A stretch of DNA of 37,312 bases. It comes from Pseudobdellovibrionaceae bacterium. GTDB lineage: Bacteria; Bdellovibrionota; Bdellovibrionia; Bdellovibrionales; UBA1609. Shown in pieces: positions 15,405-36,400 of the stretch. The stretch covers positions 1 to 37,312 of the forward strand of contig JABJQG010000047.1 in assembly GCA_018663505.1 (NCBI GenBank), read 5' to 3'. Both the position numbers and the translations under genes were made by a program. Below the pieces are notes generated by a model, which was given only the letters and a program-made list of their open reading frames with translations, was not told where the DNA came from and did not search any database. Within the stretch, counting starts at the first letter, position 1, and each line of letters opens with the position of its first letter.

Positions 15405-16052
15405 TTACTCAGCCAGTGCATCCTTAATTGCATCCTCTAGCTGCTGAAGTCCAAAAGATCGCAGAGGTCGGCCATTAACAAAAAAAGTGGGCGTCTGCCT
15501 AACACCAAAAGTATTACCATCTTCAATTTCTTGATCTATCATTTTCATGATACCCTCATCATTCATATCTACTTTAATCCGCTCAATGTCCAACCCTAAT
15601 TCAGGTAAATAAGTCCAAACCAGTTGAGGCTGTGGGTTATGATGGCTCCCCCACTCTGGAAGTTTTTTAAATAACAGATCTAAAGTTTCCCAATATTGAT
15701 TTTGTAATCTAGCTGCGGATAATATCTTAATCACAAATTTTGAGTTGGGATGAAAGGGGGCATAACGAACAACATACCTAATACGACCTTCGTATCTGCT
15801 TAGAATTTCTTTTACTAAGGGATGAAAGAAAGCGCAGCTTTCACATTCGGGGTCCAGGAATTCAACAAGCGTTACTTTAAGCATAGCACTTCCTTGAGAA
15901 GGAGAATAATCCCTAATCAAAGAAGCTCTATTATTTGATACTAATTTTTCTGTTTCTTTCACTTTTGCATCTTTAAATAAATAAGTAGCTACAAAAAATA
16001 CAGCTATTAAAACTATTGCTGTCACTGCAACCAATTTTTTCTGATTAGACAT
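15405..16052 (-). CDS. DsbA-like thiol oxidoreductase (BdbD type), membrane-anchored
   Basis: A 215-aa protein with one N-terminal transmembrane anchor (7-25) and a periplasmic thioredoxin-like DsbA domain. The active site is C-E-S-C (Cys70-Cys73) in F-L-D-P-E-C, and the cis-Pro loop is T-P-T-F-F near residue 185. It should introduce disulfides into exported proteins, and the Cys-rich lipoproteins and exported peptides in this window are plausible clients. Its ATG lies 8 bp inside the upstream DsbB-like gene, so the pair is translationally coupled and forms a complete oxidation system in which DsbB re-oxidises this protein. Confidence 0.9.
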   Translation of the reverse strand: MSNQKKLVAVTAIVLIAVFFVATYLFKDAKVKETEKLVSNNRASLIRDYSPSQGSAMLKVTLVEFLDPECESCAFFHPLVKEILSRYEGRIRYVVRYAPFHPNSKFVIKILSAARLQNQYWETLDLLFKKLPEWGSHHNPQPQLVWTYLPELGLDIERIKVDMNDEGIMKMIDQEIEDGNTFGVRQTPTFFVNGRPLRSFGLQQLEDAIKDALAE

Positions 16053-16479
16053 TTGAATTTTCCCTTGTGAAGTTTCTATTAAATAAAAATAATAATATAA
16101 TTACCATTGAGAAGGCCACTAGTGATAATAGCGGGATTGTTACAAAACCCAACCAGTCAATATACACCGTAGAGCAAGCCACTCCTTGTCGGCAAGGTGC
16201 TGCATTTTCAGGAATAATATTCCAGTGTAATAGGTTATGGTAAAGGGCGAATACCCAGCCTACGAGAGCTAAGGGTAATGAAAAACCATAAACTTTTTGA
16301 TCCAAGGGAAATAACCCCTTTGCTAGAACTAAAACTAAGGGATACATAAAAATTCTTTGATACCAGCAAAGTGAACATGGTGCATAGCCTATAACTTCAC
16401 TAAAAAATAGACTCCCCAGTGTAGCAATAACCGACACTACCCAACCTAAAAATAAATAATTAAAACTCTTAGATGTCAC
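16045..16479 (-). CDS. DsbB/BdbC-like disulfide bond formation membrane protein
   Basis: The start is set at GTG 16479, which has AAGG 6 bp upstream; a TTG at 16497 would add six residues. The product is ~144 aa with four transmembrane helices. The quinone-side pair is C-S-L-C (in Y-A-P-C-S-L-C-W-Y-Q-R) and the periplasmic pair lies in A-P-C-R-Q-G-V-A-C, both hallmarks of DsbB/BdbC. It passes electrons from the DsbA partner to quinone. It is the first gene of a two-gene operon with the DsbA-like gene. Confidence 0.9.
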   Translation of the reverse strand: MTSKSFNYLFLGWVVSVIATLGSLFFSEVIGYAPCSLCWYQRIFMYPLVLVLAKGLFPLDQKVYGFSLPLALVGWVFALYHNLLHWNIIPENAAPCRQGVACSTVYIDWLGFVTIPLLSLVAFSMVIILLFLFNRNFTRENSNV

Positions 16480-16723
16480 TATTAACCTTACGAACAAATT
16501 AAATTCTCGAAAAACATATCACATGCAACTCATGGATTTGTAGATTAAGCCAAAAATGTTCAAATTTGACTCAAGGCAAGAAAAGAGATGTGAAGCGAAG
16601 ATTAGCTCGTGTTATAGTCAGTACAATTGATGACAACTCCCTCCCAACCACAGCAATAGCTGTCTTTTGGACAGCACAAAGTAAACGTTCTTGAATACTG
16701 AGTTCTTGTTGCATAATTACAAA

Positions 16724-30853: not shown

Positions 30854-31633
30854 TTAATCATCGTCATCATCGTCATCATCGTCATCATAGTCATCATCAT
30901 GGTCATCGTGGTCACCACCTCGTTTACCATGTTTGTTATGTTCTCCATGTTCAGTTTCTCCTAACCGAACCTGAGTTCCAAATAAATTCAATTTTTGTGT
31001 ACTCGATTTATAGTTACTAGCTAAATAAAAAATAAAACTAAGCACCAGGCCCACAAAAATAATACCTGCAAACAGGTGATTGTTACCGATACCTTCTTTT
31101 TGACCCACTAGATCCTTCTTGCCTGTCACTATACTGAATACGAGTCCATCTTTATGTTTTATCTCATGAAAAACAAGGCCTGCCACATGCAAAATAGCTA
31201 TAATCACAAAAGAATTTGATAAAAGCTCATGAATTTCTTCAAAAAAATCTTCAAATATTCCAAAGGACATTAAAAGACCCGTTATCACCAAACCTATTGT
31301 TAACAAAAACATAGCTATAGCCGCGTAGCTTGATGCTGGGTTATGCCCCACATATCTCCTTGTTTTTGAATTCACAATGGAGGACAAGTAATCCACAAGT
31401 TCCCTAGGAGCTAATCTAAAAGAAGAAAACCGAGCATATTTACTCCCTACAAGACCCCAGACTACTCTAAGGATTATGAGGAAAGCCATCAACAGGCCTG
31501 ATAGCATATGGTAGGCGTAGATCCAGGAGTCATCATCAATGTACTTTGCTATAAAAAATGATGATAGAAACAGCAACACGAAAAGCCAGTGAAACAACCT
31601 TGTTGGTAAATCATATACTTTAATTTTTTTCAT
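30854..31633 (-). CDS. Cytochrome b561-type di-haem membrane protein with Asp-rich tail
   Basis: The start is set at ATG 31633, which has AAGGA 6 bp upstream; an ATG two codons earlier is less well placed. The ~259-aa protein has five to six transmembrane helices and the b-haem histidines expected of cytochrome b561/Ni-Fe hydrogenase b-type subunits: L-F-H-W (near 14), Y-H-M-L-S-G (near 42), and I-L-H-V-A-G-L-V-F-H (near 165). It should shuttle electrons across the inner membrane to or from quinone. The C-terminal ~30 residues are His/Asp-rich, ending in ten Asp encoded by a trinucleotide repeat, possibly a divalent-metal-binding tail. It is cotranscribed with the LuxR-type regulator and divergent from the PepSY-like gene. 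Confidence 0.88.
   Translation of the reverse strand: MKKIKVYDLPTRLFHWLFVLLFLSSFFIAKYIDDDSWIYAYHMLSGLLMAFLIILRVVWGLVGSKYARFSSFRLAPRELVDYLSSIVNSKTRRYVGHNPASSYAAIAMFLLTIGLVITGLLMSFGIFEDFFEEIHELLSNSFVIIAILHVAGLVFHEIKHKDGLVFSIVTGKKDLVGQKEGIGNNHLFAGIIFVGLVLSFIFYLASNYKSSTQKLNLFGTQVRLGETEHGEHNKHGKRGGDHDDHDDDYDDDDDDDDDD
30857..30910. repeat. Trinucleotide microsatellite coding a poly-Asp tail
   Basis: On the plus strand the end of the b561 gene is a run of ATC/GTC/ATA units (minus-strand GAT/GAC/TAT) with short ATCGTC sub-repeats. It encodes D-D-D-Y followed by ten Asp. Such a tract could vary in copy number in frame. Confidence 0.7.
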
Positions 31634-31704
31634 AATCATTCCTTTTTACATATTTTCATCATGGTCTCTTTCGATAGAGTCCACTAAATATCACTAAAAA
31701 TCAT

Positions 31705-31755
31705 GGGGCATTTGCCCCAAGCCCATATATTATAGGCTCTTAGGGCAAATGCCCC
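31705..31755. promoter_or_regulatory. Paired GGGGCA/TGCCCC palindromes in the b561-PepSY divergent region
   Basis: GGGGCATTTGCCCC (31705-31718) and GGGCAAATGCCCC (31743-31755) are each near-palindromic and are inverted copies of one another, 38 bp apart centre to centre, with an inner AGCC/GGCT dyad between them. They sit in the only intergenic space between the divergent b561 operon and the PepSY gene. This fits two operators for a dimeric regulator, or alternatively a large cruciform. Confidence 0.55.
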
Positions 31756-31827
31756 TTTCGTGATGAGCAAATAAATACGACATTAAATTATGAAAAATCA
31801 CAAACAATAAAAACAAAGGAGTTTTTA

Positions 31828-32094
31828 ATGAAAGCAGCACTCATAGTGTTAAGCGGCTTAACTTTAACAAGCACAGCATATGCCAAAAAAAATTGCACAG
31901 ATCAGCCAAAAGGCAAATGGATGAGTATTGAGGCCTTTAAAAGTATGGCCTCAGAAAATGGATATCAAATTCGTAAATTTAAACAAAAAGGTTCTTGTTA
32001 TGAGATTTACGGTAAAAATAAACAGGGGCAAAAAGTAGAGGTCTATTTTAATCCTGTGGATGGCAGCGTGGTAAAATCTGAAATTGAAGATTAA
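31828..32094 (+). CDS. Exported PepSY-like small protein
   Basis: An 88-aa protein with ATG 31828 and AAAGGAG 6 bp upstream. The signal peptide ends S-T-A-Y-A (residue ~19). The mature 69 residues form one PepSY-like alpha/beta module: W-M-S-I-E-A-F-K, G-Y-Q-I-R-K-F-K, C-Y-E-I-Y-G, and V-E-V-Y-F-N-P-V-D-G-S-V-V. Two Cys (in N-C-T-D-Q-P and S-C-Y-E) may form a disulfide. Similar proteins often sit beside cytochrome b561 genes, where they may bind metal or modulate the redox protein. It has its own promoter, facing the b561 operon across the shared palindromes. Confidence 0.8.
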   Translation: MKAALIVLSGLTLTSTAYAKKNCTDQPKGKWMSIEAFKSMASENGYQIRKFKQKGSCYEIYGKNKQGQKVEVYFNPVDGSVVKSEIED

Positions 32095-32162: not shown

Positions 32163-32612
32163 TTAGTTTTCACACAAAAACTTTGGTTTTAATAAGTGAG
32201 CTGGCACACAGTAATCTAGCCACTCTCCGCTGTCATAACTTGAGTATGCAAAAAACCAATGCACCTCTTTGTGGTTGGATTTCATCTCAAATTCATGGGG
32301 CATAACCAAAGGTTGCTCACCGTCCACCTCGTAACACCAACCATAAGACCGCATTCTGCGATCATCTATAACTTCCAGAGCTTCTAACCCTGTGGGCGTA
32401 TTGTAGATAGAATGAATGCCTTTATCTATACCTAAGTAAGGAATGTCATTGTTGTTTAAAATGTTTATGGTTAAAAAACCAAGGCTGTTACCACTAGTAA
32501 ATTCCAATTGTGATTCGAATTTTGGATTTACAGAACATGGGCCTGTTATCTTAATTATTCCTGCCGATAGTGTTGTTGGTAAAAATAGAAATAAAAGTCC
32601 AAATAGCTTCAC
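32163..32612 (-). CDS. Exported protein at the end of the bufferin operon, DUF4430-like
   Basis: The start is set at GTG 32612, preceded by seven G residues 3 bp upstream. It gives a 149-aa protein with a signal peptide ending T-L-S-A (~16); the frame extends to 32663 without support. The mature chain has four Cys (G-P-C-S, G-W-C-Y, D-Y-C-V, F-L-C-E) and a G-W-C-Y-E-V-D-G-x-x-P ... E-V-H-W-F-F-A-Y-S-S-Y pattern like DUF4430 (transcobalamin-like) domains. It lies 37 bp after bufC on the same strand, suggesting a periplasmic accessory of the metallophore system. Its start codon lies in a hairpin (32604-32640). Confidence 0.6.
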   Translation of the reverse strand: MKLFGLLFLFLPTTLSAGIIKITGPCSVNPKFESQLEFTSGNSLGFLTINILNNNDIPYLGIDKGIHSIYNTPTGLEALEVIDDRRMRSYGWCYEVDGEQPLVMPHEFEMKSNHKEVHWFFAYSSYDSGEWLDYCVPAHLLKPKFLCEN

Positions 32613-32640
32613 AATCCCCCCCAGAGTTTTTGTGAAGCTA
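32604..32640 (-). promoter_or_regulatory. RNA hairpin holding the GTG start codon
   Basis: TAGCTTCACAA (32604-32614) and TTGTGAAGCTA (32630-32640) are exact complements with a 15-nt loop. In the minus-strand mRNA the GTG start at 32612 is in the 3' arm and the G-tract ribosome site is in the loop. It could limit translation of the last gene, or end part of the bufABC transcript. Confidence 0.5.
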
Positions 32641-32649
32641 ACAGGTGTA

Positions 32650-33396
32650 CTAGCTTGTTTCAAGACTTAGTAAACCTAACTCAATCCAGCGTGGTAAAGA
32701 TTTTTCAAAAATTTGAGTTAAATCCTCTGTGGCATATGTATCTGGTATTTTTTCTATACACTGCTCTAAACTGTTATGTGTTTTTAATAACTGTAACACT
32801 GTCAATTCGAGGCTTGTCCAAGATCTTATATGCACCATTCGATCCTCGGTGGTCCAAATAGACAGGTACGATAATTCTTCTTCATAGGCTTTCTCATCAT
32901 TCCATATTTTATCTAGTGGCCATTTATTTTGCATAAGTACTAAAGAATGGTTATGTACAATCTTAGTCTCTCCAGGGGCTACATCTTGTTTTTTTTGTTC
33001 TTTGTAGTTAAAGAAGTTGTAGAAGCTTTCAATCATTGCCCACTCTAGCTGTGCCAAATCTAAAATAAATTTTGCCGCTGCTTTTGGCTTATTATTTTTT
33101 ATATAGCTGGGCAAGCCTCTACTTATTTCATTTATATAATGAGTCTTAGAGGGGTTTTGTTTTAAATAGTTATAAATATATTGATTAAAATCATCACTAG
33201 CTAAAAATATCCCCGTAACAGAAAAATCATTTTCCACACACTCAACAGTTCTGTTTTTAAAACTCAGCTTATAAGAATCTAATCTGGTTTTTCTCTGAAT
33301 ACCTTTGGACTCCTTAATAAAAGGCAATTCCTTAACTTCGCTATCTTTGGTCGACAAATAATTAAAAACTTGCTCCTGCATATCCTTAAGTTTCAT
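32650..33396 (-). CDS. bufC: BufC-type (HvfC/DUF2063) partner protein for peptide modification
   Basis: A 248-aa protein. The N-terminus (M-K-L-K-D-M-Q-E-Q-V-F-N-Y-L) and the segment R-L-D-S-Y-K ... V-E-C-V-E-N-D-F near 40-60 match the DUF2063 domain of BufC/HvfC proteins, which pair with DUF692 enzymes and present the precursor peptide. A D-L-A-Q-L-E-W-A-M-I segment near 115 marks the second domain. It begins 11 bp inside the bufB end, so the two are translationally coupled, and the set bufA-bufB-bufC follows the order of bufferin and gold-induced gig operons. It likely recruits BufA to the maturase. Divergent at sequence level, but the context makes the call firm. Confidence 0.8.
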   Translation of the reverse strand: MKLKDMQEQVFNYLSTKDSEVKELPFIKESKGIQRKTRLDSYKLSFKNRTVECVENDFSVTGIFLASDDFNQYIYNYLKQNPSKTHYINEISRGLPSYIKNNKPKAAAKFILDLAQLEWAMIESFYNFFNYKEQKKQDVAPGETKIVHNHSLVLMQNKWPLDKIWNDEKAYEEELSYLSIWTTEDRMVHIRSWTSLELTVLQLLKTHNSLEQCIEKIPDTYATEDLTQIFEKSLPRWIELGLLSLETS

Positions 33397-34243
33397 TATT
33401 TAGACCCTTTTTAATGACATTTTTAGCCTTCATAAGCTCTGCTTTATATTTATCAAACGATGGGATATTATCATCCCATTCTACCATTACAGATGTGGGT
33501 GGAATTTTTTTATAAGCGTAATCTAGTAACTCAAAAACCTCTGAGCATATGGGTTGGTCGTGAGTGTCAATAAGTAATCCATTTTCTTTCTTGCGATGTC
33601 CTGCCAGGTGAATTTGCCCTACATTTTCCAGTGGAATATTATCAATGTATGTTTCTGCCAGAAAGTCGTGGTTCTGTGAGCTTACATAGATGTTATTAAT
33701 ATCTAACAGAAGACCACAATCCGTTTTTTTTACAATTTCACTTATAAATTCCCATTCTTCCATCTCGGAATGTTCGAAGGCCATATAGCTAGAAGCATTT
33801 TCAATCATAAAACGCATACCTAGAGCTTCTTGAATTTGCTGAATATTATTTGAAACAATATCTACTGTTTCTTGAGTATAAGGCAAAGGCAGCAGCTCGT
33901 GACTACTGAGGCCATGAATACCTGTCCAACAGATGTGATCCGAAACCCATGCCGGTTGAACTAATTGAATGAGTGCTTTTAATTCTTTAAGAAATATTTG
34001 ATCTAGAGGGTCAGTACCTCCAATATTAGAAGATACACAGTGAAGCACAATGGGGTAATCTTTACGAATTTTTAATAATGTGGAGAGCAGTGAGCTTTGT
34101 CCATGGCCTGGAATCCCCATATAGTTTTCTGTTAGAGCTTCAAACCAATCAACACCGGTTTCTGCTCCAACAATATCTTGAAAATGATCCGGTCTCAATC
34201 CGAGACCAAACCCTAAGTTATTAAACTTTACTTCTTTGTTCAT
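33386..34243 (-). CDS. bufB: MNIO (DUF692) peptide maturase, BufB type
   Basis: A 285-aa TIM-barrel enzyme of the multinuclear non-haem iron oxidative (MNIO) family. Metal-ligand segments are visible in order: V-L-H-C-V-S-S (His68), W-V-S-D-H-I-C-W, F-M-I-E-N-A-S-S-Y, L-L-L-D-I-N-N-I-Y-V, Q-I-H-L-A-G-H and I-D-T-H-D, ending V-M-V-E-W-D. Characterised relatives (MbnB, BufB, TglH) oxidise Cys residues of small precursors; BufB makes thiooxazole-type groups that bind copper. The start lies 5 bp after bufA, and the end overlaps bufC. Predicted substrate: the Cys residues of the adjacent BufA. Length is normal for the family. Confidence 0.92.
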   Translation of the reverse strand: MNKEVKFNNLGFGLGLRPDHFQDIVGAETGVDWFEALTENYMGIPGHGQSSLLSTLLKIRKDYPIVLHCVSSNIGGTDPLDQIFLKELKALIQLVQPAWVSDHICWTGIHGLSSHELLPLPYTQETVDIVSNNIQQIQEALGMRFMIENASSYMAFEHSEMEEWEFISEIVKKTDCGLLLDINNIYVSSQNHDFLAETYIDNIPLENVGQIHLAGHRKKENGLLIDTHDQPICSEVFELLDYAYKKIPPTSVMVEWDDNIPSFDKYKAELMKAKNVIKKGLNNET

Positions 34244-34248
34244 ATAAA

Positions 34249-34611
34249 TTATTTATTTCCACAGCTACCGTCAGCACATTTTGCCCCAGCTTTCATTTTC
34301 TTTTTCTTCATATTGGCTTTTGTGCATTCTTTGTCACCTTCAGCGCAATCCTTTTTCTTAGACATATCTCCACATTTTGCCTTATGCCCTTTCTTTTTAC
34401 CCATATTCTCGCCACAACTTGCCTTATGCCCTTTCTTTTTACCCATATTTTCTCCGCAACTACCACCACCACACTTAGATCCACCTGCTTTAGAATTTTT
34501 AACTTTCTCACCTGCAAAGGCATTATTTGAACTCACAAGGCTTGTTCCTACCACTAGACCTGTTAATGCTGCAGCTAAAATCAATTTATTTCTTACTTCT
34601 TTGTTATCCAT
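34249..34611 (-). CDS. bufA: Bufferin-like Cys-rich precursor peptide with internal repeat
   Basis: A 120-aa protein with ATG 34611 and AAAGGAG 5 bp upstream. The signal peptide is long and ends A-F-A (residue 33), typical of DUF2282/bufferin precursors. The mature part is very Lys/Gly-rich with eight Cys (47, 52, 66, 80, 89, 96, 112, 117). Residues 52-65 and 66-79 are an almost exact 14-residue tandem repeat (C-G-E-N-M-G-K-K-K-G-H-K-A), coded by a 42-bp duplication. It is expected to be secreted to the periplasm after Cys modification by BufB/BufC and to bind copper or other thiophilic metals. First gene of the operon; likely regulated by the nearby ECF sigma factor. Confidence 0.88.
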   Translation of the reverse strand: MDNKEVRNKLILAAALTGLVVGTSLVSSNNAFAGEKVKNSKAGGSKCGGGSCGENMGKKKGHKASCGENMGKKKGHKAKCGDMSKKKDCAEGDKECTKANMKKKKMKAGAKCADGSCGNK

Positions 34612-34683
34612 GCTTTCTCCTTTTATCGTTTAATTTTCGTTTACAATATTTGTATTTCAACTATGAGTGTTTTGAACTCTTAA

Positions 34684-34722
34684 AATATTACAAAATAATA
34701 TAATAAAGTATTTTGTAATATT
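34684..34722 (+). promoter_or_regulatory. 14-bp inverted repeat around a TATAAT in the bufA-doxX divergent region
   Basis: AATATTACAAAATA (34684-34697) and TATTTTGTAATATT (34709-34722) are exact complements with an 11-bp spacer that contains TATAAT (34699-34704). A possible -35 (TTGAAC, 34672-34677) is 21 bp away, too far for a normal promoter. The layout suits a repressor covering the -10 of the doxX promoter, or a MerR-like long-spacer promoter. Confidence 0.55.
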
Positions 34723-34768
34723 ATTGTGTGTCAGCTCACCTATAAATATCAATGAAAAGGGAGCATTA

Positions 34769-35218
34769 ATGAATAAAACAGACGTACAAACAAAAATGAG
34801 TAAATTTCACAATTTTTTAAGCCAATTAACCTGGCTACCTAGTGCTGTAGCTAGATTAAGTATTGGCTGGGTATTTTTAACCTCAGGCTGGGGCAAGCTA
34901 CACAATTTAGAACAAATTGTGGGATACTTCCAATCTTTAGGTGTACCCTTGGCTCATATACAAGCACCTGTGGTTTCGGTCCTAGAGTTAGTTGGTGGCT
35001 TGGCTTTAATTATCGGCGCTGGCACACGTTATTTCTCTGCAATACTCATGGGTATAATGTCTGTGGCCATTATGACTGCCCATGCCGAAGACATTAATCA
35101 ATTATCTGATATGTTTAAAATCTATGAATTTGTATATATAATTGCTTTAGGATATTTGGCTACATTAGGTGCTGGAAAATTCTCTGCTGACTATATAATT
35201 AAAATGAAATTTAAATAA
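34769..35218 (+). CDS. DoxX-family membrane protein of the bufferin locus
   Basis: The start is set at ATG 34769 (M-N-K-T-D-V), which has AAAGGGAG 5 bp upstream; the frame begins at 34724 without support. The 149-aa protein has four transmembrane helices and the DoxX signature: R-L-S-I-G-W-V-F-L-T-S-G-W-G-K-L near 28-43, and V-S-V-L-E-L-V-G-G-L-A-L-I-I-G-A-G-T-R near 70-90. DoxX-like genes (gigT in the gold-induced operon) are regular partners of DUF692/DUF2063 clusters. It may handle quinone-linked electron flow or metallophore export. It faces bufA divergently and is followed 42 bp later by the sigma factor gene. Confidence 0.88.
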   Translation: MNKTDVQTKMSKFHNFLSQLTWLPSAVARLSIGWVFLTSGWGKLHNLEQIVGYFQSLGVPLAHIQAPVVSVLELVGGLALIIGAGTRYFSAILMGIMSVAIMTAHAEDINQLSDMFKIYEFVYIIALGYLATLGAGKFSADYIIKMKFK

Positions 35219-35260
35219 ACTTAGGAGTTACGATCATCGGACTCTGAGTTATGGGGTTCT

Positions 35261-35857
35261 ATGAGTGCAAGTAAAGATATACAGTTTAACACCGGTGAGT
35301 TTTTAACCAGAATCAAAGAGCGTGATAATGATGCCATAGAAATGCTGGTAAGAAGGTACACAGAACCACTATTAAGAACGTCCATGGGTTTAGGTTTTGA
35401 TGCACATACGGCTGATGAGTTGGTGCAAAGTGTTTGGACCACTTTTTTTGATGTGGTGTCAGCCTTTCAAGGGCGGTCACATATTAGAACTTTTATATTT
35501 GGCATCTTATACAACAAGGTTTCCGAGCAAAGACGCCTACAGAAAAAGGCTATGACTCATGACCATATTGATGAGGTCATGGACTCAAAATTTAATGCCA
35601 GTGGACACTGGATTACTCCACCAGTAGATCCGGAAAAGTTTTTATTGGCTTCTGAGACTATGGATTTAATCCAAAGATGTATTGATGCTTTACCTACTGC
35701 TCAGCGAGCTGTATTTTGCTTTAAGGAAATTGAAGATAAAAAAACTTCTGAGATTTGTAAGATCATGGATGTTACTGTGTCCCATTTAGGTGTGCTCTTT
35801 TACAGAGCTAGAAACGAGCTTAGAGAATGTATTGAAATGAAAGCCAGTGAAGCCTAG
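35261..35857 (+). CDS. ECF-type RNA polymerase sigma factor
   Basis: A 198-aa protein with ATG 35261 and GGGG 5 bp upstream. Sigma region 2 spans ~15-85 (A-I-E-M-L-V-R-R-Y-T, then D-E-L-V-Q-S-V-W-T-T-F-F and R-T-F-I-F-G-I-L-Y-N-K). Region 4 spans ~130-190 with L-P-T-A-Q-R-A-V-F and the HTH S-E-I-C-K-I-M-D-V-T-V-S-H-L-G-V. Regions 1 and 3 are absent, as expected for ECF factors. It lies between doxX and the anti-sigma gene. In Caulobacter a sigma/anti-sigma pair (SigF/NrsF) controls bufferin genes; a similar control is inferred here, with the divergent buf promoters as targets. Confidence 0.9.
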   Translation: MSASKDIQFNTGEFLTRIKERDNDAIEMLVRRYTEPLLRTSMGLGFDAHTADELVQSVWTTFFDVVSAFQGRSHIRTFIFGILYNKVSEQRRLQKKAMTHDHIDEVMDSKFNASGHWITPPVDPEKFLLASETMDLIQRCIDALPTAQRAVFCFKEIEDKKTSEICKIMDVTVSHLGVLFYRARNELRECIEMKASEA

Positions 35858-35957
35858 TTTTATTTAATGGTAGTTTACAGCAAAAATGATTCGAATGCAG
35901 ACCATAATTTGAAATGAGGATTCTGTTAAATAAGCATTGAAAAAAAAAGGCCCATTT

Positions 35958-36209
35958 ATGATTTCATGCAAAGAGTTAGTAAAAAAAATTAATCAAACAG
36001 AGAAGCTCTCGGTAGTACAACGTGCTGAAATAAAAATGCATGCTCTTATGTGCAAGCACTGTGGTAATTATATGAAACAAATGACTATGATGAAGGTTGG
36101 GTTTGCAAAGCTTTTTAAAAACAAGGTTCAACCTAAACCTGATCAAATTCAAGATTTAGAGGAAAAAGTGCTAAACAAAGTTAAAAATGACTTAGATAAG
36201 AAGAGCTAG
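35958..36209 (+). CDS. Zinc-binding anti-sigma factor (ZAS type), soluble
   Basis: The start is set at ATG 35958 (M-I-S-C-K-E-L-V); the frame runs back to a TTG at 35937 with no support. The 83-aa protein has the zinc-associated anti-sigma pattern: S-C-K-E-L-V near the start, then I-K-M-H-A-L-M-C-K-H-C-G-N-Y (H-x3-C-x2-C). It has no transmembrane segment, so it should be cytoplasmic, unlike NrsF, and could sense metal or thiol stress directly through its zinc site. It follows the ECF sigma gene by 100 bp and most likely holds that sigma factor inactive. Confidence 0.82.
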   Translation: MISCKELVKKINQTEKLSVVQRAEIKMHALMCKHCGNYMKQMTMMKVGFAKLFKNKVQPKPDQIQDLEEKVLNKVKNDLDKKS

Positions 36210-36286: not shown

Positions 36287-36400
36287 TGTGTAGTGTTTAA
36301 TCGTCGCTGCGTACAAAAATCTCCTTACCCGAAGTCTTGTGTAATTTAATATGTTACTTATTTACGTCAAGGAGTCTTGCCGACGATTAAACACTACACA
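36287..36400. mobile_element. MITE-like 114-bp element with perfect 20-bp terminal inverted repeats
   Basis: TGTGTAGTGTTTAATCGTCG (36287-36306) and its exact reverse complement (36381-36400) bound a 74-bp interior with no reading frame. The interior has a short CTCCTT/AAGGAG dyad and AT-rich sequence. No target duplication is evident at the borders, so the boundaries are defined by the repeats only. It may be a non-autonomous transposon or a large transcript-end structure in the gap between the anti-sigma gene and the convergent kinase-like gene. Confidence 0.6.

Follow-up and report, generated by a model that had tools for sequence, protein, structure and literature searches.

The window analysed here, a stretch of 37,312 nt of Pseudobdellovibrionaceae DNA (contig JABJQG010000047.1) from a relative of predatory bacteria, contains at positions 32163-36209 a locus that probably encodes a thiooxazole metallophore of the captophorin class, together with a self-contained, autoregulated switch consisting of an extracytoplasmic function (ECF) sigma factor and a soluble zinc-binding anti-sigma (ZAS) factor. 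The minus strand carries, in this order, the precursor gene bufA, the multinuclear non-heme iron oxidase (MNIO) gene bufB, the DUF2063 gene bufC and a gene for an exported protein, while doxX and the ECF and ZAS genes face in the opposite direction (Table 1). All seven genes claimed in an earlier reading of the sequence alone (the sequence-only reading) were found, with the same coordinates and order, and family searches confirm the MNIO, DUF2063, DoxX and ECF assignments. The further claim that these genes form a complete MNIO unit for a ribosomally synthesised and post-translationally modified peptide, with a linked ECF factor and soluble ZAS factor, gains support from conserved linkage and from paired ECF-type promoters predicted in the bufA-doxX gap. 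The observation is therefore confirmed and its interpretation partly supported; the genes, their conserved linkage, the motif and the predicted promoters are backed by sequence comparison.

The regulatory genes are recognisable at different levels of significance. DoxX matches PF07681 (E-value 6.3e-20) and reaches 73 of the 80 bits required for HvfX (NF050144, 2.8e-20). The ECF protein exceeds the cut-off of the sigma70-ECF family TIGR02937 (66.5 bits, cut-off 42.9) and matches PF08281 (8.4e-10), with PF04542 staying just below its cut-off (22.9 of 24 bits); the closest plasmid ECF proteins are ∼28% identical over most of its length. The ZAS protein lies below the cut-off of the antisigmaE family NF052368 (1.4e-9, 37.6 bits, cut-off 50), and its ZAS motif is complete, with C4, H28, C32 and C35 invariant in the alignment of homologs. 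It has no transmembrane (TM) stretch (maximum 19-residue hydropathy 0.34) and does not match the NrsF family PF06532. Judged by its sequence, with a C/H-x23-26-H-x3-C-x2-C arrangement and no TM helix, it is a putative anti-sigma factor of the MseR/HrsE/RsrA type. The most likely translation starts are ATG 35958 for the ZAS gene and ATG 34770 for doxX; for the latter, the alternative TTG 34724 is disfavoured because it overlaps the predicted doxX promoter. No meaningful relatives of the ZAS, BufC and exported proteins were found in the PDB.

Table 1. Genes, predicted promoters and inverted repeat of the locus, in window coordinates
Feature	Position	Strand	Remarks
exported DUF4430-like protein	32163..32663	-	166 aa; 14-nt overlap with bufC; last minus-strand gene
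bufC, DUF2063 + C-terminal RRE-like partner (RiPP recognition element; PME type 1)	32650..33396	-	248 aa; 11-nt overlap with bufB
bufB, MNIO (PF05114) maturase	33386..34243	-	285 aa
bufA/hvfA-like precursor	34249..34611	-	120 aa; directly before the MNIO gene
predicted ECF promoter of bufA	34663..34692	-	TGTAAT-N16-ACACTCAT
inverted repeat	34684..34722	none	19-nt arms, 89%
predicted ECF promoter of doxX-ECF-ZAS	34714..34743	+	TGTAAT-N16-TCACCTAT
doxX (HvfX-like membrane protein)	34770..35218	+	ATG start; AGGGAG-like ribosome site upstream
ECF sigma factor	35261..35857	+	198 aa
soluble ZAS anti-sigma factor	35958..36209	+	83 aa; ATG start; C4-x23-H28-x3-C32-x2-C35

Predicted promoters and ECF-ZAS linkage in Bdellovibrionia

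The regions upstream of buf genes, doxX and stress genes in related genomes have an ECF-type motif in common, TGTAA[G/T]-N16-NCAC[T/C]NAT. To score the window, a matrix was built from 14 sites of related genomes, with none taken from the window itself; the sites upstream of bufA (34692, minus strand) and doxX (34714, plus strand) ranked first and second among 74,566 positions. Simulated sequence also yields single scores of this size, so that the strength of the prediction resides in the presence of both sites in one gap of 158 bp, back to back and in the right orientation. In loci retrieved once the motif had been defined, it was found, among the top three positions per locus, upstream of bufA in genomes G117 and G047 and upstream of a carboxymuconolactone decarboxylase-like gene in G047. 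Within the own genome of the window, a strict form of the pattern has four matches, i.e., the bufA and doxX sites and two matches inside open reading frames (C44 and C64) which are taken as chance. A looser form gives 25 matches, mostly within genes, against 7 for a control pattern; three of the 25 lie upstream of an open reading frame in the correct direction, namely those of bufA and doxX and a TGTAAA site in an apparent gap (L190), the scoring of this search having placed the doxX site inside the over-long TTG reading frame of doxX. Look-alikes in the ECF coding sequence, approximately 100 nt before the ZAS gene, were set aside, since they encode a conserved CKILDVT helix. The promoter pair of Neisseria type, GTMAG with a -10 element CGTC, was not found upstream of bufA, doxX or the ECF and ZAS genes of the window.

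Orthologs of the ECF factor are present in 15 copies in 14 of 144 genomes of the class Bdellovibrionia, which together contain approximately 67 MNIO genes. For six of the 15 copies, an MNIO gene is found at a distance of up to 2.5 kb, compared to ∼0.01 expected for random placement, a figure which is indicative only because the related genomes are not independent. Pairs of ECF and ZAS genes recur within the class and also close to it. In a scan of named genomes, an MNIO gene was located within 8 kb in 5 of 18 ECF loci, and a ZAS gene follows the ECF gene in 16 of them; the exceptions are L054, at a contig edge and with an out-of-frame match, and L056, where none was found. The order doxX-ECF-ZAS recurs at a contig end in genome G004, and in G117 the genes bufA-B-C-doxX-ECF-ZAS form one run. 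Several of the ECF-linked clusters are of the BufA2 type, as the three that were tested all exceed the NCBIfam BufA2 cut-off. Like the window, such clusters in other Bdellovibrionia (SSF45, RIFCSPHIGHO2_01_FULL_40_29 and CG10_47_8) have the orthologous ECF-ZAS pair beside MNIO and DUF2063 genes and the same promoter motif nearby, but their precursors are BufA2 proteins. The plasmid-borne MNIO relatives that were inspected, from Pseudoalteromonas, Thiothrix, Pseudomonas and Rhodanobacter, stand in copper or mercury contexts or are without an annotated ECF factor.

Several observations count against the proposed metallophore switch. The motif was initially spotted by visual inspection of relatives and window together. 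The precursor itself passes no precursor-family threshold in Pfam or NCBIfam, and its identification as BufA has accordingly been corrected to membership of a small HvfA-like subgroup. Many ECF-ZAS loci of the class have no adjacent MNIO gene, and the switch is not an exclusive bufferin regulator. Finally, genome G036 keeps the same divergent pair of sites with an identical 22-nt offset (L016, 8946(-) and 8968(+)), yet no ECF ortholog or ZAS was detected there. The G036 sites may be read by another sigma factor, or the ECF gene may lie in an assembly gap; a weak ECF of this genome (L063) was considered and set aside, no ZAS relative having been found in the genome.

It is possible, though less probable than a metallophore switch, that the ECF-ZAS pair is a general regulator of oxidative or thiol stress, with the peptide operon as one target among several. 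In relatives the motif also precedes genes for YceI, DUF547, a VTT and pyridine-nucleotide-disulphide oxidoreductase protein and carboxymuconolactone decarboxylase, and in G047 thioredoxin/DsbD-like genes lie downstream; in Neisseria and Haemophilus the corresponding regulons include msrAB. The co-targets in relatives suggest a response to thiol, redox or metal stress. Against such a general role, strict matches between genes are confined to this locus in the window's own genome, and the TGTAAA site (L190) is the single other suitably placed site among the 25 looser matches.

Divergent ECF-type sites were also observed with a DUF547-type gene on one side and, on the other, a gene encoding a fusion of VTT and pyridine-nucleotide-disulphide oxidoreductase domains (L043, 10439-10471; L135, 2389-2437). 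By their upstream sites, these genes are likely a further regulon member in other genomes with the ECF-ZAS pair.

The two sites in the bufA-doxX gap coincide with an inverted repeat, which could alternatively be the operator of a dimeric repressor. The length and 89% match of its 19-nt arms, and its retention in G036, where no ECF ortholog was detected, would suit an operator. However, loci in which the genes run in one direction (L020, L044, L045, L052 and G117) carry a single half of the repeat with a -10 element at N16 distance, and the geometry is that of the GTAAC-N17-CGAA promoters of Caulobacter SigF and Sinorhizobium meliloti RpoE7. An operator is therefore unlikely, and the best reading of the repeat from these comparisons is a pair of -35 elements that face outwards.

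The precursor, its maturation proteins and the exported protein

The precursor is a low-complexity protein with 8 Cys and 27 Lys residues, and its gene contains an internal 42-nt tandem repeat. It starts with a hydrophobic N-terminus and a Sec signal peptide (..NAFA-GEK), as judged by eye and from hydropathy, and includes the core motifs SKCGGGSCG, ASCGE and AKCGD and the C-terminal motif GAKCADGSCGNK. Searches at E <= 1 gave no match to Buf1 (DUF2282, PF10048), to Buf2 (BufA2, NF050166) or to HvfA (NF050188), and EGKCG repeats are absent. The protein groups with the precursors of G036 and G047, each of which is encoded directly upstream of an MNIO gene, such that the group extends over three genera. 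The core [GD]AKCADGSCG[DN]K is common to its members: the window and G036 precursors each have a single C-terminal copy, and the G047 precursor has three copies. The G047 member matches HvfA NF050188 with an E-value of 2.1e-5 (25 bits, under the cut-off of 95). HvfA precursors carry AEGKCGEGKCG motifs; in comparison with EGKCGEGKCG, the group motif AKCADGSCG keeps the K-C-x4-C-G spacing, whereas the other residues differ, and FonBC is known to accept some core changes of this kind, e.g., AKCGA. On account of the conserved spacing, the HvfA match of the G047 member and this tolerance of FonBC, the precursor is classified by sequence as a divergent HvfA-like (Lys-Cys) type, neither Buf1 nor Buf2.

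The composition of the precursor and the lack of a direct profile match over threshold would also fit an unmodified, metallothionein-like exported protein. This is very unlikely, given that in each of three genera a gene of this group, with its common core motif, directly precedes those for the MNIO and DUF2063 proteins, that the G047 member matches HvfA, and that the characterised clusters of MNIO-PME1 type install thiooxazoles.

BufB is the sole MNIO protein encoded in the 3.78-Mb genome. It matches PF05114 (2.6e-99) and exceeds the cut-off of NF050167, MNIO_BufB (337 bits, cut-off 310), while its motifs H68, SDH101, EN148, LDINN180, IHLAG211, DTH226 and VEWD254 are all retained; from its sequence it belongs to the BufB/HvfB/FonB group of MNIO proteins. 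BufC exceeds the cut-off of PF09836 (DUF2063; 5.4e-10, 39.9 bits, cut-off 27.2) and matches HvfC (NF050145, 8.3e-18) below cut-off and NGO1945_C at 0.0044. The gene order, in which a Cys-rich precursor with a Sec signal peptide precedes the MNIO gene and a DUF2063 partner follows it, is that found in MNIO-PME1 thiooxazole metallophore clusters (captophorin, bufferin, oxazolin).

The exported protein had been put forward in the sequence-only reading as an additional, DUF4430-like partner of the metallophore. Its match to DUF4430 (PF14478) has an E-value of 0.03 and 15.2 bits, below the cut-off of 23.8; in its family, 3 of 10 members match at E <= 0.01, the best at 1.2e-4. A dedicated role is improbable: the gene closes the minus-strand run and overlaps bufC by 14 nt, but the family occurs in 38 of 144 Bdellovibrionia genomes and adjoins an MNIO gene in none of the 19 other loci inspected. 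Based on this distribution the protein is probably incidental to the metallophore unit, although its gene may be co-transcribed with the buf genes here. As an observation on the family itself, its members across Bdellovibrionia (window 32163-32663, L074-L092) have an invariant YGWC motif and further Cys and Trp residues.

Comparison with known ECF-controlled systems

The closest precedent is the autoregulated operon NMB2140-2145 of Neisseria, which encodes a member of the DoxX family, three proteins that were hypothetical at the time, the sigma factor RpoE and the soluble ZAS protein MseR, in which residues C4, C34 and C37 matter for activity. The operon of the gonococcus is organised identically; NGO1945, which it encodes, is the DUF2063 protein that partners the MNIO in the gonophorin cluster. 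Like the window, the Neisseria system has an ECF factor with a soluble ZAS directly downstream in an autoregulated unit with MNIO-type genes, a precursor of the Lys-Cys type, which in N. gonorrhoeae is gonophorin, and a -35 element GTMAG at about the same spacing. Its genes form a single polycistronic operon, whereas those of the window form two divergent ones; its -10 element is CGTC and not NCAC, and its regulon also contains msrAB. With ECF group 13, the Neisseria/Haemophilus type, the similarity of the window factor lies in the -35 element and the spacing. In Haemophilus influenzae, RpoE2 is held by the 67-aa cytoplasmic ZAS-type protein HrsE and controls doxX-hvfABC, an RpoE2-dependent counterpart of the window unit with a thiooxazole, copper-binding product. 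Here, the sigma and anti-sigma genes stand by msrAB and not by hvfABC, and the precursor has AEGKCGEGKCG repeats. For the cytoplasmic metal or thiol signal suggested in the sequence-only reading, these precedents diverge: expression of rpoE2 is induced by HOCl and H2O2, whereas in the meningococcus H2O2, diamide and singlet oxygen are without effect. With MseR and HrsE already known, control of MNIO genes by a soluble ZAS is not new, and the departure from the known state that the sequence-only reading saw in the soluble anti-sigma factor does not hold; the membrane protein NrsF is one of two known solutions.

The NrsF solution is found in Caulobacter, where SigF and NrsF accompany CC3254-3257. 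This system and RpoE7-EcfR7 of S. meliloti resemble the window in having an ECF factor beside a precursor-MNIO-DUF2063 operon, and in a GTAAC -35 element with N17 spacing, but their -10 element is CGAA. In Caulobacter, moreover, the precursor is a Buf1 protein (DUF2282) and NrsF is an anti-sigma factor with six TM helices. The promoters concerned are GTAACC-N16-CGAA for SigF and TGTAAC-N16-GCGAAT for the RpoE7-controlled DUF692 operon. On comparison of these promoters, the -35 element and spacing are constant among the ECF factors of MNIO operons, while the -10 element varies.

Proposed mechanism, flanking features and implications

The modification chemistry, the metal and the signal are inferred by analogy with HvfA, FonA, MseR and HrsE, of which HvfA and FonA combine thiooxazole chemistry with copper binding; metal binding by the present product, anti-sigma binding and the role of DoxX are likewise proposed. 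In this mechanism the soluble ZAS protein would keep the ECF factor inactive by means of a zinc site formed by C4, H28, C32 and C35. A soft-metal or thiol-oxidising signal in the cytoplasm would disturb this site and release the ECF factor, which would then read the two back-to-back promoters (TGTAAT-N16-NCAC) in the bufA-doxX gap. One of these would drive bufA-bufB-bufC, possibly through the gene of the exported protein, and the other doxX-ECF-ZAS, which would constitute a feedback loop. BufC would use the Sec signal peptide to deliver the precursor to BufB, and BufB would oxidise precursor cysteines to 5-thiooxazoles. In the periplasm the exported product would sequester copper or comparable metals, helped by DoxX, a putative accessory in the envelope.

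Three features of the window lie outside this unit. Downstream of the ZAS gene, at 36287-36400, two perfectly matching 20-nt arms enclose a loop of 74 nt; this inverted repeat is single-copy in the genome and has no clear T-run terminator. Adjoining the locus on its other side (30854-32094) is possibly a second metal or redox unit, in which a cytochrome b561 whose C-terminal tail is rich in His and Asp is encoded next to a LuxR-like regulator and an exported PepSY_2 protein. A DsbA-like and DsbB-like gene pair, assigned by eye from the translations, is located at 15405-16497.

The locus and its relatives place ECF/ZAS control of MNIO metallophores outside the Pseudomonadota, and also beside BufA2 loci, while a survey from 2025 reported sigma factors for Buf1 clusters and none for Buf2 clusters (PMC12452194). 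The predicted promoter rule is explicit, can be read from DNA and is ready for use. A more speculative and less probable extension is that the Bdellovibrionia ECF/soluble-ZAS lineage tracks MNIO operons whatever their precursor (HvfA-like, Cys-Lys or BufA2), combining a lineage-specific -10 element with a -35 element and a spacing that are fixed and recur in the systems of Caulobacter, Sinorhizobium and Neisseria, and that the zinc site of the ZAS protein itself senses cytoplasmic copper or another soft metal, e.g., from prey. The comparison suggests that unrelated types of anti-sigma factor, the membrane protein NrsF and soluble ZAS proteins, govern one peptide pathway via ECF factors of the same -35 element and spacing, and this shared geometry under differing anti-sigma factors bears on the signal which the peptide pathway answers.

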